Shown here: positions 40,338 through 64,000 of the stretch, in pieces
Numbering within the stretch: the first letter of the stretch is position 1
How the letters are laid out: every line of letters begins with the position of its first letter
Assembly: GCF_002868845.1 (NCBI RefSeq)
Contig: NZ_PKUB01000038.1
Coordinates: 1 to 64,000, forward strand
DNA: 64,000 nt
Direction of reading: 5' to 3'
From: Desulfuromonas sp.
GTDB taxonomy: Bacteria; Desulfobacterota; Desulfuromonadia; Desulfuromonadales; BM501
Notes under the pieces: model-generated
Databases searched by the model: none
What the model was told of the DNA's origin: nothing
Seen by the model: only the letters and a program-made list of their open reading frames with translations
Made by a program: the position numbers and the translations under genes

Positions 40338-40637
40338 ATGAAACAGCTGATCTGCATGTGTGTTATGTTGCTTCTGGCGGCTCTCGCCGGCCCGGCGGCT
40401 TCTTTCGCCGCCCCCCAGAAGTCCGAGGTCGTTGAGTCGATCGCGACCCTCAACGTCAATGCCGCCGGCGCCGAAGAACTGGAAAGCCTGCCGGGCATCG
40501 GCAAGGTGACGGCAGAGCGGATTGTCGCCTACCGCTCCGAGCACGGGGATTTCGCGACTCCCGATGACCTGGTCCATGTCAAGGGGATCGGTGAGAAGAC
40601 CCTCGAGAAGATCAGGTATCTGGTCTCGGTAAAATAG
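40338..40637 (+). CDS. Small exported helix-hairpin-helix protein, ComEA-like
   Basis: 99 residues from ATG 40338 (AGGAGGGAG upstream). A signal peptide (MKQLICMCVMLLLAALAG) is followed by two helix-hairpin-helix motifs (LNVNAAGAEELESLPGIGKV and DDLVHVKGIGEKTLEKI). Such short ComEA-like proteins bind DNA in the periplasm and often take part in DNA uptake. No other competence genes are near. Stop TAG. Confidence 0.85.
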   Translation: MKQLICMCVMLLLAALAGPAASFAAPQKSEVVESIATLNVNAAGAEELESLPGIGKVTAERIVAYRSEHGDFATPDDLVHVKGIGEKTLEKIRYLVSVK

Positions 40638-52871: not shown

Positions 52872-54442
52872 GACTGGTCACAGCGGACCAGATGCGCGAA
52901 CTGGACCGGCGCACCATCGAGGAGGTCGGGATCCCCGGCGTCGTACTCATGGAGAATGCCGGGCGCGGCGCCGCAGAGCATCTCTGCCGGCGCTTCGCGT
53001 CCCTGAAGCCGGGGCCCGTTCTGGTCCTTGCGGGCAAGGGGAATAACGGCGGCGACGGCTACGTCATCGCCCGCCACCTGCTTGATCGGGGCTGGCAGGT
53101 TCGCACCGTGGTGCTCGCCTCGGCCGAGTCTGTCGGCGCAGATGCCGGCGTCAACTTGCGGGCACTGCGCAACAGCGGCGGAGACATTGACTTCGCCGAG
53201 GACGAGGGGGCACTACGGGCGGCTCTTGATAAAGGCCGGGGGGACACCCTCGTGGTCGATGCCCTGCTCGGGACCGGCTTGACCTCGGAAGTCCGCGGCG
53301 CCTACGCCCTGGCCATCGACTGGATCAACGACTCCGGTGCCCAGGTCCTGGCGGTCGACATCCCTTCGTGGCTCGACGGAAGCACGGGGTGTATCCTCGG
53401 TCGGGCGGTACGGGCTGACAGCACGGTCACATTCGCCTTCGCCAAGGTCGGTCACGCGGTTTTCCCGGGCGCCGGGCTGTGCGGAGAACTGCTTACGGTC
53501 GACATCGGCATTCCCGCCACCGTGGCCGATGGCGCGGGGGACGCCCTGCTTCTCGTGGAGAGCGCCGAGGCGGCAGCCCTGTTGCCGCCCCGACCGTTCT
53601 CCGGGCACAAGGGGACCTTCGGCCACCTGTTGGTGGTGGCAGGTTCCACCGGAAAATCAGGCGCTGCGGCGCTGACCGCCGAGGGCGGGCTGCGGGCCGG
53701 GGCGGGGCTGGTGACCTTGGCCTGCCCGGCAGGGGTGCACGGGGTTCTCGAGACCAAGCTCACCGAGGCCATGACCGCTCCCCTGCCGGAGGTGGACGGG
53801 GCGGTCAGTCTTCAGGCACTGCAGGCGCTTCGCTTTCACTGGGCCGGCAAGGAGGCTGTCGCTCTCGGTCCCGGCCTGGGGCAGACCGAAGAGGTCCGGG
53901 ACCTGGTGCGACGCCTGGTCCGGGAATGTCCCCTGCCTCTGGTTGTGGATGCCGACGGGATCAACGCTCTGGCGCCAGATCCTTCCCCTCTCGGGGAGCG
54001 CAGCGGCCGGCCGGCGGTCCTGACCCCCCACCCGGGAGAGATGGCCCGCCTGACTGGCGGCACCGTGGCCGAGGTCGAGGCGGACCGCCTTGGCGTCTCC
54101 CGGGATTTTGCCCGGCAGTACGGGGTGGTGCTGGTTCTCAAAGGGGCGCGGACCGTGGTCGCATTTCCCGACGGCAGGGTTCGCATCAACGGCAGCGGCA
54201 ACCCGGGGCTTGCCAGCGGCGGCATGGGGGACGTGTTGACCGGGGTGATCGGGGGCCTGCTTGCCCAGGGCATGAAGGTTGAAGAGGCGGCCACCCTCGG
54301 GGTTTTTCTGCACGGCCTGGCCGCCGACCGCATCCTGTCCCGCATGGGCGATGCCGGGATGCTGGCCGGCGATCTGCTGGCGGAAATTCCTGCCGCCCGA
54401 AAGCAACTACTCATCCATGGAGGGAAGCATGCGCAAAGCTAA
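52868..54442 (+). CDS. nnr: Bifunctional NAD(P)HX epimerase / dehydratase
   Basis: 524 residues. The N-terminal part (about 1-215) is the NAD(P)HX epimerase (GNNGGDGYVIARHL, VDALLGTGL) and the C-terminal part (about 225-510) the ADP-dependent dehydratase (GHKGTFGHLLVVAGS, LTPHPGEMARL, GSGNPGLASGGMGDVLTG). Together they repair hydrated NAD(P)H. ATG 52868 overlaps the acpS stop. The end overlaps the CBS-domain gene. Confidence 0.95.
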   Translation: MRLVTADQMRELDRRTIEEVGIPGVVLMENAGRGAAEHLCRRFASLKPGPVLVLAGKGNNGGDGYVIARHLLDRGWQVRTVVLASAESVGADAGVNLRALRNSGGDIDFAEDEGALRAALDKGRGDTLVVDALLGTGLTSEVRGAYALAIDWINDSGAQVLAVDIPSWLDGSTGCILGRAVRADSTVTFAFAKVGHAVFPGAGLCGELLTVDIGIPATVADGAGDALLLVESAEAAALLPPRPFSGHKGTFGHLLVVAGSTGKSGAAALTAEGGLRAGAGLVTLACPAGVHGVLETKLTEAMTAPLPEVDGAVSLQALQALRFHWAGKEAVALGPGLGQTEEVRDLVRRLVRECPLPLVVDADGINALAPDPSPLGERSGRPAVLTPHPGEMARLTGGTVAEVEADRLGVSRDFARQYGVVLVLKGARTVVAFPDGRVRINGSGNPGLASGGMGDVLTGVIGGLLAQGMKVEEAATLGVFLHGLAADRILSRMGDAGMLAGDLLAEIPAARKQLLIHGGKHAQS

Positions 54443-54878
54443 GGACATCATGACAAAAGCGGTTCACACGGTGACCGAAGAGACGGGGGTGGAGGAATTG
54501 GCTCGCCTCTTTCAGGAAAAGGGCGTCAGCGCCCTGCCTGTTGTCGACGACGCCGGGGGGCTGCGGGGGGTGGTTACGGAAACCGATCTGGTCGCCCAGG
54601 ACAAGCCCCTCCACATCCCGACGGTGATTTCACTTTTCGACTGGGTTCTTTACCTGGAGAGCGAAAAGAGTTTCCGCGAGGAGGTCAAACGCATTACCGC
54701 CCAAAAGGTTGGCGATATTTGCTCCCGGGACGTGGCCACCTGTACGCCTGAGACTTCGGTGAGCGCCATCGCCGAACTGATGGTGGAAAAGAAGGCCCAC
54801 CTCATCCCGGTGGTCGAGGGAAAGAAGCTGGTCGGGGTGGTGGCCAGGTTGGACATCATTCGCGCCATGGGCGCCTAG
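54429..54878 (+). CDS. CBS-domain protein
   Basis: 149 residues from ATG 54429 (GGAGGG at 54419-54424, 4 nt spacing); it overlaps the end of nnr by 14 nt. It consists of two CBS motifs (KDIMTKAVHTVTEETG, VSALPVVDDAGGLRGVVTETD and DICSRDVATCTPETS, AHLIPVVEGKKLVGVVARLD), a pair that usually binds adenine nucleotides. No attached catalytic domain. Target unknown. Stop TAG. Confidence 0.9.
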   Translation: MRKAKDIMTKAVHTVTEETGVEELARLFQEKGVSALPVVDDAGGLRGVVTETDLVAQDKPLHIPTVISLFDWVLYLESEKSFREEVKRITAQKVGDICSRDVATCTPETSVSAIAELMVEKKAHLIPVVEGKKLVGVVARLDIIRAMGA

Positions 54879-54881
54879 GCC

Positions 54882-55373
54882 ATGCGGCAGTGGGCCCATG
54901 AAACGGCATCGCCGGAAGAGACGCGCCGTCTCGGGCAACTGCTTGGTGAGCTGATAGCCGGGCCGCAACGCATTTATCTGCGCGGTGACCTGGGCGCGGG
55001 CAAGACCTGCTTTGTTCAGGGGCTGGCCCGGGGCCTCGGGGTTTCTCCCGCTGAACCCGTCACCAGTCCCTCTTACACCCTCATGAATGCGTATAGCGGT
55101 CGTCTGCAGCTTTTTCACTTCGACCTCTATCGCCTCGCCCATCCCGAGGACCTGGAAGACTTGGACTTGACCGAGTATCTGCACGGAACCGGGGTGGCGG
55201 TGGTGGAGTGGGCGGAGCGGATGCCCGGTTCGGACCAGGAAGGCCTCATGGTCGATTTGGAATACGAGGATGAATGTGCCCGGAGTCTGATCTTCCGGGC
55301 GCGGGGGGTGGGGGCGGAGAGCTTGCTGGAGCAACTGGCGTCCCATTGGACGCAGGGGAGAGCTGCGCAATGA
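54882..55373 (+). CDS. tsaE: tRNA threonylcarbamoyladenosine ATPase TsaE
   Basis: 163 residues. The P-loop is GDLGAGKTCF and the downstream SPSYTLMNAY and HFDLYRL motifs are typical. TsaE drives the complex that adds threonylcarbamoyl to A37 of ANN-reading tRNAs. It starts 3 nt after the CBS gene and overlaps lpdA by 4 nt. Confidence 0.95.
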   Translation: MRQWAHETASPEETRRLGQLLGELIAGPQRIYLRGDLGAGKTCFVQGLARGLGVSPAEPVTSPSYTLMNAYSGRLQLFHFDLYRLAHPEDLEDLDLTEYLHGTGVAVVEWAERMPGSDQEGLMVDLEYEDECARSLIFRARGVGAESLLEQLASHWTQGRAAQ

Positions 55374-56785
55374 AAGAGTTCGATGTTGCCATTGTCGGGG
55401 CCGGCCCCGGCGGATACGTGGCCGCCATTCGCGCCGCCCAGGCGGGCGCTTGCGTTTGCCTGATCGAGGACGACGAGGTCGGCGGGACCTGCCTGAATCG
55501 GGGGTGCATTCCGACCAAGGCTCTCTACAGTACCGCCCGTCTGATGCACCATATCCGTTCGGCGGGCGAGCACGGCATTCGGGTTGGCGAGCTTGGATTC
55601 GATTTTCCCCAGGCCGCCCGTCGCAAGGACCAGGTGGTGGAGAAGCTGGTCCGCGGGGTGGAACAACTTCTCAAGGGACACGGGGTCGAGGTCTTCCGCG
55701 GCCGCGCCTCCCTCGAGGGCGAGGGGAGGATTCGCATCCGCAGGGCCGAGGTCGTGGGGCATATCCGGGCCAGGCGTATCATCCTCGCCACGGGGTCACT
55801 CCCTGCCCGTCCGAAGGGCCTTCCCGTGGACGGGAAAAATGTTTTGACCAGCAATGAAATTCTTGCTATGAAGGATCTGCCCCGCAGCCTGCTTGTTGTC
55901 GGCGGCGGTTATATCGGGTGCGAGTTTGCCAGTATTTTTAGCGCCTTTGGCACCAAGGTCACCGTTGTCGAGTTGTTGCCGACTCTGCTGGGCCATACCG
56001 ACCGGCTGGCCGTGCGGGAAGTGGAGAAGTCCCTGCGAGAGGCCGGGGTTGCCGTTCACACAGGGACGGCCGTCGAGGCTCTGGACGTGGTCGAGGGAGG
56101 GGTCAAGGTTCGCCTCGGCGGCGGTGAGAGTCTGGTTGTCGAGAAGGCTCTGGTGGCCGTTGGCCGGGTGCCCAACAGTCATGGCCTCGGTCTCGAGGAG
56201 TCTGGCGTTCGCCTCGAAAATGGCGCCGTGGCTGTGGATGACCGCATGGCGACATCCGCCGAAGGGGTTTATGCCATCGGGGATGTCACCGGGGGGATTC
56301 AACTGGCTCACGTGGCCTCCTACCAGGCCGGGGTGGCCGTCACCAATGCCCTGGGGGGGGATGCCCGGGCCGACTACCGTGTCGTTCCCAGCACTCTTTT
56401 CACCCTTCCCGAAATCGGCCAGGTCGGCTTGAGCGAGGCCGCCTGCAAGGAGAAGGGGATCGAGACCCGGGTCGGGCGATTCGCCTACCAGGCATCGAGC
56501 AAGGCTCTGTGTGCCGGAGAGGTGCGGGGGTCGGTGCAGGTCGTGTCTGACCGGGGGGATGGAAAAATTCTCGGGGCTGCGGTCGTCGGGGACGAGGCGT
56601 CGACCCTGATCGCCGAGGTCGCTGCCGCCATGAGCGGCTGGATGACCGCCGTCGAACTCGGGGAGGTGATCCATTCCCATCCCACCCTGCCGGAGATGAT
56701 AAAAGAGGCCGCCGAGGACACAGCAGGGCGCGCCGTGCACAAGGTGGGGCGTAAAGCGGGACGGGCCCCGGCAAAGAAGGCATGA
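55370..56785 (+). CDS. lpdA: Dihydrolipoyl dehydrogenase
   Basis: 471 residues. FAD-dependent E3 component of 2-oxoacid dehydrogenase complexes. The FAD motif VGAGPGGYVAA, redox-active Cys41 and Cys46 (GGTCLNRGCIPTK), NAD motif VVGGGYIGCEFA and active-site HSHPTLPE are present. A pyruvate dehydrogenase E1 gene pair starts 6 kb downstream, which could use this E3. A basic Ala/Lys tail ends the protein. Confidence 0.95.
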   Translation: MKEFDVAIVGAGPGGYVAAIRAAQAGACVCLIEDDEVGGTCLNRGCIPTKALYSTARLMHHIRSAGEHGIRVGELGFDFPQAARRKDQVVEKLVRGVEQLLKGHGVEVFRGRASLEGEGRIRIRRAEVVGHIRARRIILATGSLPARPKGLPVDGKNVLTSNEILAMKDLPRSLLVVGGGYIGCEFASIFSAFGTKVTVVELLPTLLGHTDRLAVREVEKSLREAGVAVHTGTAVEALDVVEGGVKVRLGGGESLVVEKALVAVGRVPNSHGLGLEESGVRLENGAVAVDDRMATSAEGVYAIGDVTGGIQLAHVASYQAGVAVTNALGGDARADYRVVPSTLFTLPEIGQVGLSEAACKEKGIETRVGRFAYQASSKALCAGEVRGSVQVVSDRGDGKILGAAVVGDEASTLIAEVAAAMSGWMTAVELGEVIHSHPTLPEMIKEAAEDTAGRAVHKVGRKAGRAPAKKA

Positions 56786-56839
56786 TGAAACTGCGGCCGC
56801 CTCGGCGTCCGGTTCAGGCAAAAGGAGGAATCCAAAACC

Positions 56840-58072
56840 ATGGCATTGGTTGTGCAGAAATACGGCGGAACGTCCGTCGGGTCGATTGAAAAGATTCGCA
56901 ATGTCGCCCGGCGGGTGGCCAAAACCTACGACGAAGGCAACGACGTTGTCGTGGTCGTCTCCGCCATGGCCGGGGAGACCAACAAACTGGTGGCCCTGGC
57001 CAACGAGATATCCGAATTTCCCAGCGAGCGCGAATATGACGTGCTTGTATCCACCGGCGAGCAGGTGACCATTGCCCTGCTCTCCATGTGCCTGCAGTCG
57101 ATGGGCTACAAGGCCAAAAGCTATCTCGGTCATCAGATCGCGATTCGCACCGACAACACCTTCTCCAAGGCGCGCATCGAGAAGATCGAAGACAAAAAGG
57201 TGCGCGAAGACCTGAAGAAGGGAACCATCATCGTGGTGGCCGGCTTCCAGGGGGCGGACAAGGAAGGGAACATCACCACTTTCGGCCGGGGCGGTTCCGA
57301 TACCTCTGCGGTGGCCGTTGCTGCCGGGCTCAAGGCCGATGTCTGCGAGATCTACACCGATGTGGACGGGGTTTACACCACCGATCCCCGCATCGTTCCA
57401 GAAGCCTCGAAAATTGAGAAGGTCTCCTACGATGAGATGTTGGAGATGGCTTCTCTCGGGGCGAAGATTTTGCAGATCCGCTCTGTGGAGTTCGCCAAGA
57501 AATACGGCGTGGTGGTCCACGTTCGTTCCAGTTTTAACGACAATCTAGGGACCCTGGTGATGAAGGAGGATGCTGATATGGAGACCGTTCTGGTTTCAGG
57601 AATTACGTTCAACAAGGATGAGGCCAAGATTTCGGTGATGCGGGTTCCCGACAAGCCGGGGATCGCCGCTCAGCTCTTCTCCCCCTTGTCCCACGCCAAC
57701 ATCACCGTGGACATGATCATTCAGAATGTCTCCCACGAGGGGTTCACTGACATGACCTTCACCGTTCCCAAGGCCGATTTCAAAAAGGCCCTCAAGATCG
57801 TCGAGGAGAATGCCAGGGAGATCGGCGCCGGCGGCGTGTAGAGCGACGAGGATATCGCCAAGGTCTCCGTCGTCGGGGTCGGCATGCGTTCCCACTCGGG
57901 TGTCGCCAGCAAGATGTTCCAGACCCTGTCTCAGGAGGGGGTCAACATTCAGATGATCTCCACCAGCGAGATCAAGGTTTCGTGCGTCGTCGACGCCAAG
58001 TACACCGAACTTGCCGTGCGCGTCCTGCACGAGGCTTTCGGTTTGGCGAAGAAAGACGTGAAGCCCGAGTAG
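56840..58072 (+). CDS. lysC: Aspartate kinase; interrupted by in-frame TAG
   Basis: 410 amino-acid positions, the usual length of a monofunctional aspartokinase. It phosphorylates aspartate, the first step to Lys, Thr, Met and diaminopimelate. The kinase domain (about 1-240) has [22 protein letters not shown] and [14 protein letters not shown]1 is about 265-330 and ACT2 about 345-400 ([20 protein letters not shown] and [12 protein letters not shown]). Codon 334, in the linker between the ACT domains, is TAG (57839-57841), and the frame then continues to a normal end at TAG 58070-58072. Without readthrough the product would lose ACT2, which related enzymes need for folding and feedback control. 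ATG 56840 follows AAAGGAGGAA. Confidence 0.93.
57839..57841 (+). other. In-frame TAG codon in lysC
   Basis: The reading is [15 protein letters not shown]. The residue is in the variable linker between the two ACT domains, where GAG, CAG or AAG would be normal. The first in-frame start after it is ATG 57884, inside ACT2 and without a Shine-Dalgarno sequence. Confidence 0.95.
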
Positions 58073-58125
58073 TTCATCCTGCCGGGGGAGAAGCCATCCC
58101 CGCGACTCAATGAAGGTGTGGTGCC

Positions 58126-59697
58126 ATGAACCTGATCCGACTGTACGACACGACCCTGAGGGACGGGACCCAGGCCGAGGATGTTTCCTTCCTGGTGGCC
58201 GACAAGATTCGCATCGCCCAGAAGTTGGACGAACTGGGGATTCACTACATCGAGGGCGGCTGGCCCGGATCCAACCCCAAGGACATCGCCTTTTTCAAGG
58301 AGATCAAGAAAGTCTCCCTGAACCAGGCCAAAATCGCAGCATTCGGTTCCACCCGGAGGGCGAAGTCGACGCCGGACAAGGACAACAATATCCAGACCCT
58401 GATCCAGGCCGACCCGGACACGGTCACCATCTTCGGCAAGACCTGGGACTTTCACGTCCGCGAAGCCTTGCGCATCAGTCTCGAGGAGAACCTGGAACTC
58501 ATCAACGACTCCCTGGAGTATTTGAAGAGCCACGTGGGCGAGGTCGTCTACGACGCCGAGCACTTCTTCGACGGGTACAAGGCCAACCCCGAGTACGCCA
58601 TCAAGACCCTGCAGGCGGCCCAGGAGGCCAAGGTCGACTGCATTGTGCTGTGCGACACCAACGGCGGCACCATGCCCTATGAAATCCCCGGCATCATCGC
58701 CGAGGTGCAAAAGACCATCTCCACTCCCCTTGGAATCCATACCCACAACGATGGCGAGTGTGCCGTGGCCAACTCCCTGGTGGCGGTGGACTGCGGCATC
58801 GTTCATATCCAGGGGACCATCAACGGTTTCGGCGAGCGCTGCGGCAATGCCAACCTGTGCTCCATCATTCCCGCTCTGCGCCTCAAAATGGGCAAGGAAT
58901 GCGTCACCGACGAACAACTGCAGCGGCTGCGCGAGATTTCCCGCACCATCTACGAGCTGGCCAACCTGGTCCCCAACAAACACCAGGCCTATGTCGGCAA
59001 CTCCGCTTTCGCCCACAAGGGGGGGGTTCACGTTTCGGCCATTCAGCGCCATCCCGAAACCTACGAGCACATTCGGCCGGAACGGGTGGGGAACGTCACC
59101 CGGGTCCTGGTTTCCGATCTCTCCGGGCGCGCCAACATCCTGGCCAAGGCCGAGCAGTTCAACATCAACCTCGACAGCAAAGACCCCGTCACCCTGGAGA
59201 TCCTCGAGGACATCAAGGAGATGGAGAACAAGGGCTACCAGTTCGAGGGGGCCGAGGCCTCCTTCGACCTGCTCATGCGCCGCGCCCTGGGGACCCTCCG
59301 CCACTACTTCTCGGTCATCGGCTTCCGGGTCATCGACACCAAGAGGCACGAGGACGAGATACCCATGTCCGAAGCCACGGTGCAGGTCAAGGTCGGGGGC
59401 AAGATCGAACACACCGCCGCAGAGGGACACGGTCCGGTCAATGCTCTGGACAACGCCCTGCGCAAGGCCCTGGAAAACTTCTACCCCCAACTCAAGCAGA
59501 TGCGCCTGCTCGACTACAAGGTCAGGGTCCTGCCAGCCGGCAAGGGGACGGCTTCGATTACCCGGGTTCTGATCGAGTCCGGGGACAAGACATCCCGCTG
59601 GGGAACGGTGGGGGTGAGTGACAACATCATCGACGCCTCCTATCAAGCCCTGGTCGATGCCCTGCACTACAAGCTTCTTAAGGACCAGGAGAGCTGA
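58126..59697 (+). CDS. cimA: Citramalate synthase
   Basis: 523 residues. It condenses pyruvate and acetyl-CoA to citramalate, an entry to isoleucine that does not need threonine; this route is used by Geobacter. The HMGL-like barrel has [17 protein letters not shown] and [14 protein letters not shown], and the C-terminal regulatory domain has [19 protein letters not shown], typical of the long CimA/LeuA-like enzymes. The length and the [10 protein letters not shown] start favour citramalate synthase over 2-isopropylmalate synthase. ATG 58126 follows AAGG. Confidence 0.92.
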
Positions 59698-59699
59698 AA

Positions 59700-60251
59700 T
59701 TGACGTCTCCCCGCGGGACGACCCTGCTGGTGTTTATTCTTTTGTCCCTGTTTGCCTGGATCGGCGGCCGGGGGACCTTCCAAAGTGAAGGTCCCCCGGC
59801 TTTTTTCGTGGAACCACAGGGTGAGGTATGGGTGAAATTTAGGGAGGGGTTTCCTTCGCAAGGAATTCACCAAATTTCTGACGGTTCGTCGATCCGAAGC
59901 GTCATTAAAGTGACGGGTCTTCCCCTGGCGTTCGACATCGTTGGGGATCCCTGCCTGGACTTCCCCCTGCAAGCGGGGGCGACCCTGGATATCCGAGTCG
60001 TGGAAGGGGAAATTGTCGCAGTTAAGAGGGGTTGGATGAGTGCGACAGAGCGTATCGCTCTCAATATCCCCTTGCATCCCGAACGCATGACACTGGAGGA
60101 CTGGGAGGCATTGCCCGGAATAGGGGAGAGTCTGGCCCGAAGGATCGAAGAGGATCGTCAAAAAAATGGCGATTTCGGCGCCCTTGAGGGGGTAAAAAGG
60201 GTTAAGGGGGTCGGCCCTAAGCGCCTTGAACGCTGGAAAATGTATTTTTAA
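59700..60251 (+). CDS. Membrane-anchored SLBB/helix-hairpin-helix protein, ComEA-like
   Basis: 183 residues from TTG 59700, 2 nt after the cimA stop. An N-terminal hydrophobic segment (LLVFILLSLFAWIGG), an SLBB-like beta-grasp region (FFVEPQGEVWVKF ... HQISDGSSIRSVIKVTG) and a C-terminal helix-hairpin-helix (WEALPGIGESLARRI, VKRVKGVGPKRLERW). A possible periplasmic DNA-binding protein. A strong terminator-like hairpin lies at codons 23-36 of this frame. GTG 59832 (GAGG at 59823-59826) is an alternative start that avoids the hairpin but loses the membrane anchor and part of the SLBB region. Confidence 0.75.
   Translation: MTSPRGTTLLVFILLSLFAWIGGRGTFQSEGPPAFFVEPQGEVWVKFREGFPSQGIHQISDGSSIRSVIKVTGLPLAFDIVGDPCLDFPLQAGATLDIRVVEGEIVAVKRGWMSATERIALNIPLHPERMTLEDWEALPGIGESLARRIEEDRQKNGDFGALEGVKRVKGVGPKRLERWKMYF
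59768..59806 (+). terminator. Terminator-like hairpin inside the ComEA-like gene
   Basis: A perfect 13-bp stem (CCGGGGGACCTTC / GAAGGTCCCCCGG; 59768-59780 with 59787-59799), 6-nt loop, then C and six Ts (59801-59806). It is the strongest such structure in the window and lies about 70 nt after the cimA stop, within the next open frame. Confidence 0.9.
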
Positions 60252-60429
60252 CAAATTGTTTTAATTGTGTAAAGGCTCGATATTGTTTCAAAAAATGGAA
60301 TAAGGAGGGTTTGGCTCGGGGGTTTTTCCTTCCGGCGGCAAGATCTGGCACGACATGTGTAGTTGTTAACGATGAAACAGACAACAAAGATCATCTGTTG
60401 CCGAATAACATATCAAAGGGGGAAAAATC
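60252..60429 (+). other. Intergenic region before the zinc-ribbon gene
   Basis: 178 nt, AT-rich at both ends. It contains AAGGAGGG at 60302-60308 without a following gene and a sigma-54-like element at 60346. No other structure is seen. Confidence 0.5.
60346..60361 (+). promoter_or_regulatory. Possible sigma-54 promoter
   Basis: TGGCACG (60346-60352) is a perfect -24 box, but the -12 part reads GTGTA instead of TTGCA, with GT in place of the key GC. It lies 68 nt before the zinc-ribbon ATG. Weak candidate. Confidence 0.3.
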
Positions 60430-60585
60430 ATGAAATGTCCCAAATGCCGAGGCAGAATGTACGCCGAGAAGTACTATGATTTCGTTCGCTCTTTCGATGC
60501 TTGGAAATGTTGCGCCTGCGGGGAGGTGGTCGACCCCACAATCCTGACCAACAGAGCCCGCAACCACAACCTTTTCCTCGGGTGA
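60430..60585 (+). CDS. Small zinc-ribbon protein
   Basis: 51 residues from ATG 60430, preceded by AAAGGGGGAAA. Two Cys pairs (CPKC at residues 3-6 and CCACG with Cys28 and Cys30 or Cys27) could hold a zinc ion. There are many aromatic and basic residues between them. It stands alone, between a weak sigma-54-like element and a good terminator. Function unknown; it might bind nucleic acid or a protein. Confidence 0.75.
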   Translation: MKCPKCRGRMYAEKYYDFVRSFDAWKCCACGEVVDPTILTNRARNHNLFLG

Positions 60586-60629
60586 TCTGAACCTGTCAGG
60601 GATGCCCCACGTACAATACCATTGATGCG

Positions 60630-60664
60630 AAGCGCCGGGTCCTGTCCCGGCGCTTTCAGTTTTT
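60630..60664 (+). terminator. Terminator after the zinc-ribbon gene
   Basis: AAGCGCCGGG (60630-60639) and CCCGGCGCTT (60646-60655) form a 10-bp stem with a 6-nt loop, followed by TCAGTTTTT. It could also serve the minus-strand fadJ-like gene in part, as that gene ends nearby at 60739. Confidence 0.75.
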
Positions 60665-60738
60665 CAGGAATAAAAACGCTCCCTTCGTTTCAAATATTCA
60701 CACGGTTCAAACCGCGGACCCAGGGTCTTGGCGAGTTT

Positions 60739-62769
60739 TTACAGAGACAGAACGACTCCCTGTAGGCCCCGGTTGTCCGCCCAGCGACAGGGTCCTCCAA
60801 GGAACGGCGGAAAACCGGCTCCGAAGACCATTCCGGTATCGACGTCCTCCGGGGCGATGGCCACCTGTTCCTCCAGACAGCGGCCCGCCTCGTTGAGTAT
60901 GAGGTAAAGCAGCCTCTCTACGTCCTCTCCAGTGGCTTCTCTTTCGGGGCGCAGGCCAAGCAGAATGTCGGCCTCCGGGTTCGATCCCGCGCTGTGCTCT
61001 CCGTGGTAGAGGTAAAAACCCGCCCCCCCTTTCTTGCCGACAAGGCCGCTTTCGACAGCCCGCTCCAGCAAGGGGCAGGTTGCCAGGTATGGAAAGGCCC
61101 CTGCGAGTGTTGTCCCCACCTCCGCGGCGATATCGATTCCTACTTCGTCAATGAGGCGGAAAGGCCCCATGGGCAGTCCGAAGTCCTTGACCCTTTTGTC
61201 CAGGGAGACCCGTTCCACCCCCGCTTCGGCCAGCATAACGGCTTCCAGGAGGTAGGCGACAAGCAGGCGGTTGACCAGGAACCCTGGGCGGTCGGCGACA
61301 ATGATAGGGGTTTTCCCAAGCCTCACGGCCGTTGCGAAGAGGGTGGCAGCGGTCTGTTCCGAGGTCTGTTCACCGCGGACCACTTCCACCAGCGGCATGC
61401 GGTCAACGGGGTTGAAGAAATGCAGGCCCCCGACCCGCTGAGGGCGGGCTGAAACTTTCTGCAGCTCAGTGACCGAGAGGGCTGAGGTGTTAGTCGCTAT
61501 CAGGGATGCTTCCGAAAGCGTTTCCTCTACCTCCTTAAGGACCGCCTGTTTCACCCCCATGTTCTCGACCACCGCCTCGACCACGAGATCGACACCCTCG
61601 AACTCCCGGTAGCTGGTTGTTACGGTGATGAAACCCATGTTTTTAATAACCGCCTCCTCCCCCAGGCCTTTCTTTGCGAATTTGCGGGTGAAAATCTCCC
61701 GGGCGTGGTCCAACCCCTTCTCCACAGCCTCGGGGCGGATGTCCTTGAGGATGACGGAGATTTTTTTCGAGGCGATAAGCTGGGCGATGCCCCCCCCCAT
61801 GACTCCGGCTCCGAGGACGGCCGCCTTGCGAATTTCCAGTGGTTCGGCTGCAAGCTCCGCCCCCTTCTTGGGGCGCTGGGACAGATGGTAGACGTTGATG
61901 AGGTTCTTGCACTCGGGGGTGATGATCAGGCGTCCGAGTTCCAGGGCCTCCAGTTCCAAGCCCTGTTTCAGGGGCATGCCGAGACCCTTGCGCATGACCT
62001 CCAGGGCTTTCAGGGGGGCGGGGTAGTGGCGCCCTATCTTTTGTCGGAGATTCTTTTCTGCAACCCTGAACAGGAGCGCTCGTCCCGGGGCGGTCCTTTC
62101 AAGGAGAAGGTTTCGCAGCCCTCCCCGTTTTGTTTTTCGGGCAGCCTCAATCCGTCGCCTGTCGTTGGCCGCTTCGCGGACCAACTCCGTTGCCCGCTCC
62201 AGCAGACGGTCCTTGGGGACAACGGCATCGACCAGGCCGGTTCGGGACGCCTCTTCAGCGCCCATCGTTCGGCCGCTGAGCACCATGTCGAGGGCCTTCT
62301 GGACGGAGATCAGCCGGGGCAGGCGCTGGGTGCCGCCGAAGCCCGGCAGGATCCCCAGGCGGGTCTCTGGCAGGGCGATGGCCGCGTCGTCAGCGGCAAC
62401 GCGCCCGTGGCAGGCCAGGGCGAATTCAGTGCCCCCCCCCATGCAGTGGCCGTGAATGGCGGCTACCACCGGAAAGGGCAGGGCGGCCCAGCGGTCGAAG
62501 ATGCGCTGCCCTTCCCGGGCCAGGGCGGTCCCTGCCGCCGGGTCGGTGACACCTTCGATGGCCCCGATGTCGGCCCCGGCGATAAATCCACCCTTTTTTG
62601 CGCTGAGAACGAGCGCGCCCTGCAGGTCCCTGCGGGCGGCCAGCTCTCCTGCGATGGAATCGAACTCGGCGAGGAAGGCGGCATTGAGGATGTTGACCTT
62701 TTCCTCCGGCGCGTCCAGGGTGACCCGGGCGATGCCTTCTTCTACGGTGATGAGGATATGACGGCCCAT
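60739..62769 (-). CDS. fadJ: 3-hydroxyacyl-CoA dehydrogenase / enoyl-CoA hydratase (FadJ/FadB-like)
   Basis: 676 residues, the only clear minus-strand gene. The N-terminal crotonase domain (about 1-190) has the oxyanion pieces KKGGFIAGADI and CMGGGTEFALAC. The C-terminal 3-hydroxyacyl-CoA dehydrogenase has the NAD motif GAGVMGGGIAQ (about 316-326), GLHFFNPVDRMPLVEV and FLVNRLLVAYL. It performs two steps of fatty-acid beta-oxidation. No thiolase gene is adjacent. Start ATG with GGGAGGAG upstream on the minus strand. Divergent from pdhA. Confidence 0.93.
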   Translation of the reverse strand: MGRHILITVEEGIARVTLDAPEEKVNILNAAFLAEFDSIAGELAARRDLQGALVLSAKKGGFIAGADIGAIEGVTDPAAGTALAREGQRIFDRWAALPFPVVAAIHGHCMGGGTEFALACHGRVAADDAAIALPETRLGILPGFGGTQRLPRLISVQKALDMVLSGRTMGAEEASRTGLVDAVVPKDRLLERATELVREAANDRRRIEAARKTKRGGLRNLLLERTAPGRALLFRVAEKNLRQKIGRHYPAPLKALEVMRKGLGMPLKQGLELEALELGRLIITPECKNLINVYHLSQRPKKGAELAAEPLEIRKAAVLGAGVMGGGIAQLIASKKISVILKDIRPEAVEKGLDHAREIFTRKFAKKGLGEEAVIKNMGFITVTTSYREFEGVDLVVEAVVENMGVKQAVLKEVEETLSEASLIATNTSALSVTELQKVSARPQRVGGLHFFNPVDRMPLVEVVRGEQTSEQTAATLFATAVRLGKTPIIVADRPGFLVNRLLVAYLLEAVMLAEAGVERVSLDKRVKDFGLPMGPFRLIDEVGIDIAAEVGTTLAGAFPYLATCPLLERAVESGLVGKKGGAGFYLYHGEHSAGSNPEADILLGLRPEREATGEDVERLLYLILNEAGRCLEEQVAIAPEDVDTGMVFGAGFPPFLGGPCRWADNRGLQGVVLSL

Positions 62770-62802
62770 GGCTCCTCCCGGTGAGGGTTGATATATATTT
62801 TA

Positions 62803-62830
62803 ATGATATCGCATGCCTGAGAGTGGGCAA
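62803..62830 (-). promoter_or_regulatory. Candidate promoter of the fadJ-like gene
   Basis: On the minus strand TTGCCC (62830-62825), 16 nt, TATCAT (62808-62803). The start of transcription would be about 27 nt before the ATG. The sequence around the -10 is strongly AT-rich. Confidence 0.4.
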
Positions 62831-62947
62831 GGGGGAACGGCCGGTTTTGTCCGAAGGCCGGGGCCTGCTTGCCATCCGAGGCGTAGTTGTTAGTATTTAA
62901 TGGGTTTACACAAGGATTGCCCTACATAACGGATCGGTCAAATAGAG

Positions 62948-63934
62948 ATGAAAGCGAAGACGGAAAGGGCCCGGCTCGAGCCGCGGGAACTGCTGGCCAT
63001 GTATCGTGACATGGTACGTATCCGGGAGTTCGAGGAGGCCTGTCCCAAGCTCTACAGCCAGGGCAAGATGGGGGGGTTCCTGCACCTTTACAGCGGTCAG
63101 GAAGCCGTCGCCGTCGGGGTGGCCCATGCCATTCACAGCGACGACTACATGATCGGCGCCTACCGGGAACACGGCCTGCTCCTTGCCAAGGGAGCCCACC
63201 CCGGCGGGGTTATGGCCGAGCTTTTCGGGAAGGCTACGGGGGTGAGCAAGGGCAAGGGCGGGTCGATGCACCTCTGCGATGCCGAGAGGCGGTTTCTGGG
63301 CGGTTACGGCATTGTCGGAGGGCATCTGCCCATAGCGGTCGGCATCGGATATTCCATCTTCTATCGGCAGGGCGACGAGGTGGTGGTCTGCCTGTTCGGA
63401 GACGGCGCAACCAATCAGGGGGTCTTTCACGAAGCCATGAACATGGCCGCCCTGTACCGGGTGCCGGTGGTTTTCCTCTGCGAGAACAACGGCTACGGCA
63501 TCGGCACGAGCGGTTTGCGGGCCAGTGCCGTGGAGCAGCTGTATAAAAAAAGCTGCGCCTACGAGACCCCCGGTGTCAAGGTGGACGGGATGGACGTCCT
63601 GGCCGTCTACGAAACGGTTCGCCGGGCGGTGCAGCGAGCCCGGGAGGGGGAGGGGCCGAGTTACATCGAGGCCCTGACCTACCGCTTCCGAGGGCACTCG
63701 ATCTCGGACCCGGGGACCTACCGCAGCGAGCAGGAGAAGAAGATCTGGCTGGAGCGCGATCCCATTCCAAACTTCGCCGCATGGCTGATCTCGGAGGGCC
63801 ACGCAAACCGTGGGGAAGTCGAGGATATCGATGCCGAGCAGAGGGAGGTGATTGCCGAGGCGGTCCGCTTCGCGGAGCAGAGCCCTGATCCCGATCTCTC
63901 AGAGTTGTGGACCGACGTCTACGTCGAATCCTGA
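62948..63934 (+). CDS. pdhA: Pyruvate dehydrogenase E1 component, alpha subunit
   Basis: 328 residues. With E1 beta it decarboxylates pyruvate using thiamine diphosphate. The TPP motif GDGATNQGVFHEAMNMAALY...ENN (in two parts) and the FRGHSISDPGTYR phosphorylation-loop-like region are present. It is followed 14 nt later by the E1 beta gene. The 178-nt region upstream shared with the divergent fadJ-like gene has TTTACA at 62905 but no matching -10 at the right distance. Confidence 0.93.
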   Translation: MKAKTERARLEPRELLAMYRDMVRIREFEEACPKLYSQGKMGGFLHLYSGQEAVAVGVAHAIHSDDYMIGAYREHGLLLAKGAHPGGVMAELFGKATGVSKGKGGSMHLCDAERRFLGGYGIVGGHLPIAVGIGYSIFYRQGDEVVVCLFGDGATNQGVFHEAMNMAALYRVPVVFLCENNGYGIGTSGLRASAVEQLYKKSCAYETPGVKVDGMDVLAVYETVRRAVQRAREGEGPSYIEALTYRFRGHSISDPGTYRSEQEKKIWLERDPIPNFAAWLISEGHANRGEVEDIDAEQREVIAEAVRFAEQSPDPDLSELWTDVYVES

Positions 63935-63947
63935 ACGGGGGAAAGCC

Positions 63948-64000
63948 ATGCCAGAAATGACCTGTCGCGAGGCCCTGAACCAGGCGTTGCGTGAAGAAAT
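63948..64000 (+). CDS. pdhB: Pyruvate dehydrogenase E1 component, beta subunit (partial)
   Basis: The first 17 codons are visible (MPEMTCREALNQALREE), matching the typical E1 beta start TYREALNQAL(R/D)EEM. ATG 63948 has GGGGGAAAG upstream. The gene runs out of the window. Confidence 0.88.
   Translation, partial: MPEMTCREALNQALREE

Follow-up and report, generated by a model that had tools for sequence, protein, structure and literature searches.

A hairpin followed by a U tract lies within the first codons of a comEA-like gene located immediately downstream of cimA, and the two elements are maintained in relatives throughout the class by selection on the RNA. From comparison of the sequences, we estimate at about 65% the probability that the hairpin is an intrinsic terminator, placed inside comEA, which would end most lysC-cimA transcripts, with comEA being made only by read-through. 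The window analyzed is a stretch of 64,000 nucleotides from Desulfuromonas sp. (contig NZ_PKUB01000038.1); the features discussed are collected in Table 1.

Table 1. Features of the lysC-cimA-comEA region and of the hairpin, in window coordinates.
Feature	Position	Strand	Details
lysC (aspartate kinase), first part	56840..57841	+	NF005155 541.6 bits, first 333 codons
cimA, (R)-citramalate synthase	58126..59697	+	TIGR00977 784.5 bits, cut-off 450
AGGAG, Shine-Dalgarno-like	59687..59691	+	last cimA codons; 8 nt before TTG 59700
comEA-like gene, 183 aa	59700..60251	+	TTG start 2 nt after cimA stop
membrane anchor helix, codons 4-23	59709..59768	+	model; hydrophobic in 122/123 homologues
terminator-like hairpin, in frame	59767..59800	+	14-bp GC-rich perfect stem; linker residues 23-34
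hairpin 5' arm	59767-59780	+	GCCGGGGGACCTTC
hairpin loop, 6 nt	59781-59786	+	read from sequence
hairpin 3' arm	59787-59800	+	GAAGGTCCCCCGGC
U tract T6	59801-59806	+	end of Ala codon and most of two Phe codons
next terminator-like hairpin, same strand	60629..60656	+	downstream of small ORF 60430-60585

The 5' arm begins 70 nt after the cimA stop codon (TGA, 59695-59697). Hairpin and U tract together correspond to codons 23-36 of the 183 of the comEA-like ORF, which stays open across them. A sequence-only reading of this DNA had described a perfect 13-bp stem plus T6: the T6 stands, whereas the perfect stem is of 14 bp, and is further extended by an outer G-U pair (59766/59801). The predicted minimum folding energy (MFE) of the segment 59760-59812 is -35.1 kcal/mol, compared to -19.5 +/- 3.15 for 200 shuffles preserving dinucleotide frequencies (z -4.95), none of which (0/200) was as stable. 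Both strands of the 64-kb window were scanned for stems of at least 11 pairs, with one mismatch, accompanied by a T tract; the comEA hairpin showed 17 pairs with one mismatch, the runner-up 15. In the region 54000-64000, where 16 terminator-like sites were found against 9.9 expected from shuffles, the same hairpin was at the top with 15 pairs, followed by one with 11. The GC-rich stem, the short loop and an adjoining U tract under selection are those of an intrinsic terminator. The strong terminator-like hairpin noticed by the sequence-only reading inside an open frame after cimA is therefore present, as judged by its MFE z-score, its T6 and the highest number of pairs. No Rfam family matched in the region 56000-61000, at E-values up to 1. 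When the RNA model R1 was run against its own genome, the comEA hairpin ranked first (42.9 bits, E 3.3e-7), and six further places scored E 1 or better, including the opposite strand of the same hairpin.

The ORF hosting the hairpin encodes, in this order, a hydrophobic anchor, a linker predicted with low confidence, an SLBB-like domain and an HhH region; the membrane anchor and SLBB region, previously proposed for a frame starting 2 nt after cimA, were thus both found. The ORF matches PF12836 (HhH, 4.2e-10), while its score for NCBIfam TIGR01259 (ComEA), 38.5 bits, misses the cut-off of 152.35. The profile A2, built on 23 homologues, matches the solved ComEA structure 8dss over residues 40-183 (E 1.4e-19). 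In the predicted structure (mean pLDDT 88.9) a helix spans residues 4-23, the strands begin at 43 and the HhH helices at 132, with pLDDT values below 50 at 31-33 and 35-39; the hairpin codons fall in the linker, the least structured part of the model. A Foldseek search performed with this structure also gave 8dss as top match (E 1.6e-6), the superposition over the whole chain being loose (TM-score 0.32/0.45, rmsd 11.9). By profile and model, the ORF 59700-60251 probably encodes a membrane-anchored ComEA homologue, i.e. a DNA-uptake receptor. Elsewhere in the window, at 40458-40613, a 137-aa open frame also matches the ComEA-like protein, over the HhH part only, and is possibly a short ComEA alongside the anchored one.

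Upstream, the lysC frame is interrupted by an in-frame TAG (57839-57841), which precedes the last ACT part, and is then open to about 58072. Relatives show varied sense codons at this site (V 12, Q 9, T 9, E 9, L 8, and others), and the sole stop among 84 lysC alignments, obtained from the fetched loci with duplicates included, is that of the window's own copy. The TAG may be due to a sequencing error, to a real nonsense codon or to a split gene; pyrrolysine at this position was not supported, the PylS profile score being 26.8 bits against a cut-off of 178. Downstream of comEA, a small cysteine-rich ORF (60430-60585), starting with MKCPKC, has no Pfam family over cut-off; similar ORFs are found after cimA even without comEA (e.g. 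in loci L201, L210 and L211).

Of 136 genomes belonging to the order, 135 contain a CimA match at E<=0.001, in a few cases only at the level of related synthases, and 99 contain a match to the comEA-like ORF, shorter HhH-only matches included. In 226 genomes of the class, at least 85% complete, profile matches were found in 222, HhH-only proteins included, and cimA at E<=1e-150 in 218. Loci were fetched from part of the genomes of the order, and 80 more loci, mostly from Desulfuromonadales and Geobacteraceae, were added together with further stretches. The 221 loci produced 147 distinct post-cimA regions; 6 stretches without a recognisable cimA end (5 with comEA, and L212 without it) and 2 that were too short were left out. 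A comEA-like ORF is contained in 124 of the 147 regions, and is absent or partial in the remaining 23. One gene (L078) was left out because of a run of N, and 123 comEA genes were tested.

Selection on the hairpin was evaluated against controls in which codons were shuffled among synonymous positions within each gene. Over the 123 genes, the hairpin segment showed a median MFE of -27.4, against -12.6 in the synonymous shuffles, with z-scores below -2 in 117 genes (median -4.34) and p-values of 0.05 or lower in 118; in 109 genes it was also the most stable segment of the whole gene. The six genes failing at z<-2 (L010, L040, L056, L089, L121 and L190) count against the terminator reading. After reduction by identity, calculated with the linker excluded, z<-2 was observed in 81 of 87 genes at <60%, in 64 of 68 at <50% and in 25 of 27 at <40%. 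Further stretches were analyzed by using a segment picked for best pairing, a choice biased towards low MFE; 28 of their 32 comEA genes, some of which are also among the 123, showed z<-2. The misses are L260, L268, L283 and L286; the segments of L268 and L286 were wrongly picked and are counted as misses, and folding shows hairpins in both.

In 108 of the 123 genes, the best register of the stem pairs codon to codon. At the second codon pair, the facing amino acids are R:P in 69 genes, R:A in 19, H:V in 11 and R:T in 7 (n=123); the codons used are CGG:CCG in 62, CAC:GTG in 11, CGC:GCG in 10, CGT:GCG, containing one G-U, in 7 and CGT:ACG in 6 (n=108). As aligned, facing codons are mostly complementary, and amino acids change in pairs, tracking base pairing. 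The segments are 48 nt long in 90 of the 123 genes, and 7 of these are out of register; the other 83 (81 distinct), of equal length and in register, form the alignment A1. In A1, whose selection favours pairing, 85.7% of 1215 cells are paired, against 62.5% in shuffles and 39-58% in slid registers. All 15 stem pairs are changed on both sides somewhere in the alignment, and the covariation score is 0.650, compared to 0.246 for shuffles and 0.161-0.322 for slid registers.

According to the terminator reading, RNA polymerase would be released at the U tract in codons 23-36 of comEA. Full-length comEA mRNA would consequently be obliged to cross the terminator, and would derive only from polymerases reading through the hairpin. 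The stopped transcript would carry the start of comEA without a stop codon, a non-stop mRNA, and the short anchor peptide made from it would thus be tagged or degraded. Most polymerases would be expected to stop within comEA because of the behaviour of the E. coli terminator tR2: in PMC4824070, its efficiency is near maximum when placed at least 30 bp after a stop codon, and is mostly retained when the terminator sits in a coding region, up to 100 bp from its beginning. A ribosome passing from cimA to comEA and trailing the polymerase closely may increase read-through by covering the 5' arm; EF-P work (PMC5021804) lends support to the view that ribosomes coupled to the polymerase keep intrinsic terminators open.

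An attenuator coupled to translation of the first comEA codons is possible. In its full form, which we regard as doubtful, the main job of the site would be the control of comEA: a ribosome restarting at the comEA start and trailing the polymerase would block the hairpin, and comEA would be transcribed, while under loose coupling, as in starvation, with a fast polymerase or after a failed restart, the hairpin would form and comEA would be off. Such a translation-coupled switch is favoured by a comEA start overlapping or abutting the cimA stop in a fair share of the genes (the start nearest to the stop is at -4 in 25, at -1 in 11 and at -11 in 10 of 121 genes) and by SD-like sites with a duplex energy of -5 or lower in 55 of 119 genes; the anti-SD duplex energy of the AGGAG in the window is -7.4 kcal/mol. 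It is also favoured by the place of the hairpin, which is kept with respect to the comEA codons (at a median of 22 codons from the ORF start) and variable with respect to the cimA stop (46-140 nt, median 68). Against it, translation reduced by only about 10% the efficiency of a terminator located 30 bp into a second ORF, according to PMC4824070, and no conserved alternative pairing was found among the 123 genes. Anti-terminator pairing with the 5' arm gave a mean z of -0.05, with z<-2 in 3 of 123 genes, and pairing of the anchor codons with the 3' arm a mean z of -0.29, with z<-2 in 11 of 123; a conserved anti-terminator formed by the anchor codons was rejected.

A last point in favour of the switch is that comEA genes away from cimA retain the hairpin in all four genomes found with this arrangement (z -4.7 in G140, -4.65 in G231, -2.4 in G194 and -5.1 in G232), with a broken U tract in G194 and a distance of 3.1 kb between cimA and comEA in G231. 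A hairpin in a separated comEA would not be required of a pure cimA terminator and counts against that reading, though the moves may be recent. A fifth genome, G198, was rejected as a case of separated comEA, a cimA end being present on the same contig. In G140 (L251, L252) a phage-type integrase ORF (PF00589, PF13356) now follows cimA, comEA is found on another contig, and a similar short motif occurs near both junctions; insertion of a mobile element between cimA and comEA is possible. That the N-terminal codons of comEA act as a switch throughout the class, the level of the receptor being set by the restart of the ribosome leaving cimA, a gene of the isoleucine pathway, and by its coupling to the polymerase, seems unlikely on the whole; it is likewise only tentatively proposed that the linker of the receptor would have been shaped into a terminator to this end from an early stage of the class.

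It is improbable that the hairpin serves for mRNA 3'-end protection, as an RNase cleavage site or as a pause site, rather than as a terminator. Functions of this kind are in line with the strong stem and poor U tract of some members (e.g. L021, L102 and L103), which count against a terminator and which a pure terminator reading cannot explain. They are at odds with a U tract selected beyond protein and codon use. Where Phe comes after the Ala, its codon is TTT in 82 cases and TTC in 2, compared to 653:215 elsewhere in the genes (Fisher p 8e-8). Once the cases with AAA or AAG facing it in the 5' arm are set aside, the ratio is still 54:1, and the excess of TTT therefore goes beyond pairing alone. 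Similarly, the 8 nt after the arm contain 4.89 T on average, against a synonymous expectation of 4.14, and exceed it in 104 of 123 genes. The U-tract run is of median 4 in embedded and 5 in free terminators, a difference to which no weight was given, its p-value, which ignores kinship, being only 0.04.

Protection, cleavage or pausing also fit poorly with the terminator-like hairpins which are usually found free after cimA where comEA is missing or moved. Such a hairpin, picked by eye, occurs soon after cimA in 17 of 22 regions without comEA; the 23rd region without a full comEA, L117, ends inside the gene and was excluded. A terminator after cimA is thus usually kept where comEA is absent. 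No clear terminator is present near cimA in the other five (L026, L200, L207, L218 and L220), L207 having a terminator-like hairpin 110 nt from cimA; these five count against the terminator reading. In the four genomes with separated genes, cimA is always followed by a terminator-like hairpin (G140, with an MFE z of -3.85, G231, G194 and G232, locus L126).

A DNA palindrome bound by a dimeric protein is very improbable. An inverted repeat at a conserved place would suit it; however, the sequence diverges (57% mean column identity in the A1 segments) and the spacing of the arms varies among genes. Moreover, in the 108 in-register genes, G-U pairs were 155 against 201 expected after permutation, A-C mismatches 54 against 119, and other mismatches 117 against 315. 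As G-U is retained more than A-C, it is the RNA of the + strand that is conserved, and not a palindrome in the DNA.

Finally, a mis-started comEA, with the hairpin in a plain 3' UTR of cimA, is hardly credible in spite of the in-frame GTG at 59832, since in 122 of 123 homologues the 17 codons upstream of the hairpin, read in the coding frame, give a hydrophobic stretch (Kyte-Doolittle averages of 2.19 in this frame, 0.48 and -0.01 in the two others), an in-frame start codon lies at least 30 nt upstream of the hairpin in 121 of 123, the stem is in codon-to-codon register in 108 of 123, and the N terminus is hydrophobic in frame also in comEA genes outside the class, as judged by eye. The earlier suggestion of an operon terminator followed by a mis-started gene is therefore retained for its terminator half and dropped for the other; the comparison of homologues, proposed there as a check, supports the anchor, and does not require starts equivalent to GTG 59832. 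The single exception is L180 (G112), which retains the hairpin and the remaining comEA but whose anchor frame, upstream of the hairpin, is apparently disrupted. Three loci of one genus (L027, L076 and L166) show a second hairpin, from about +11 to +47 after cimA, upstream of the conserved one and near the comEA start.

The distribution of the hairpin was also analyzed in 20 near full-length homologues, taken among the best matches from 11 families in other classes of the phylum. The most stable N-terminal segment showed z<-2 in only 1 of these 20 genes (median -0.2); among 40 members sampled from the class the number was 35 (median -3.7; p 6e-9, ignoring kinship). In 16 of the 20, cimA is found upstream within the fetched stretch, not always adjacent. 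With the hairpin signal almost absent from the 20 outside genes and cimA upstream in 16 of them, the gene neighbourhood would be older than the hairpin, which looks, from these 20 genes, like an innovation of the class.

A single stretch of DNA would thus provide a natural case of a sequence acting as a protein linker and, very likely, as a transcription terminator. In Geobacter and its relatives, obligatory read-through and a natural non-stop mRNA are predicted for a competence-type gene, and the effect of translation on intrinsic termination becomes testable in a native locus. As a warning for annotation, gene starts should not be shifted, nor operons split, at such hairpins.

No paper dealing with cimA together with comEA was found in the open-licence literature, and the available parts of PMC545781 and PMC5065972 contain nothing on a terminator within comEA. 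Terminators inside coding regions are already known, in brfA and arfA. What appears new is a class-wide terminator located in the first codons of a gene that follows an operon, and kept by paired codon changes: we did not find one among the matches listed in searches of open-licence papers, a weak form of absence. The arfA gene of E. coli has a hairpin inside the coding region and gives a non-stop mRNA, and the trp attenuator features a translated leader. The coding-region terminator of Bacillus subtilis brfA works in vivo and gives non-stop products (PMC6881298), and pyrBI is cited as an attenuator in PMC4824070.

At the sequence level, comEA resembles brfA and arfA in having a putative intrinsic terminator in frame within the coding region, and transcripts without a stop codon, which those genes produce, are proposed for comEA as well. 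It differs from them in position: in brfA and arfA, which are single ribosome-rescue genes, the terminator is close to the 3' end, and the shortened product is active, whereas in comEA it occupies codons 23-36 of 183, after a biosynthetic operon. Attenuators of the trp and pyrBI type share with the proposed comEA terminator a location in or near translated RNA, their read-through following the position of the ribosome; unlike them, comEA has neither a separate leader peptide nor a conserved anti-terminator, and what is translated is the downstream protein's own N terminus. The 3' ends reported inside E. coli ORFs, mostly due to Rho or processing, also lie within coding sequence, and no conserved covarying intrinsic terminator is described for them in the available part of PMC7815308. 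Compared to the ComEA proteins of Geobacillus stearothermophilus and Bacillus subtilis (8dss, 8dfk), to which the profile match extends over residues 40-183, the gene described here is distinguished by following cimA and by bearing the hairpin in its linker codons.
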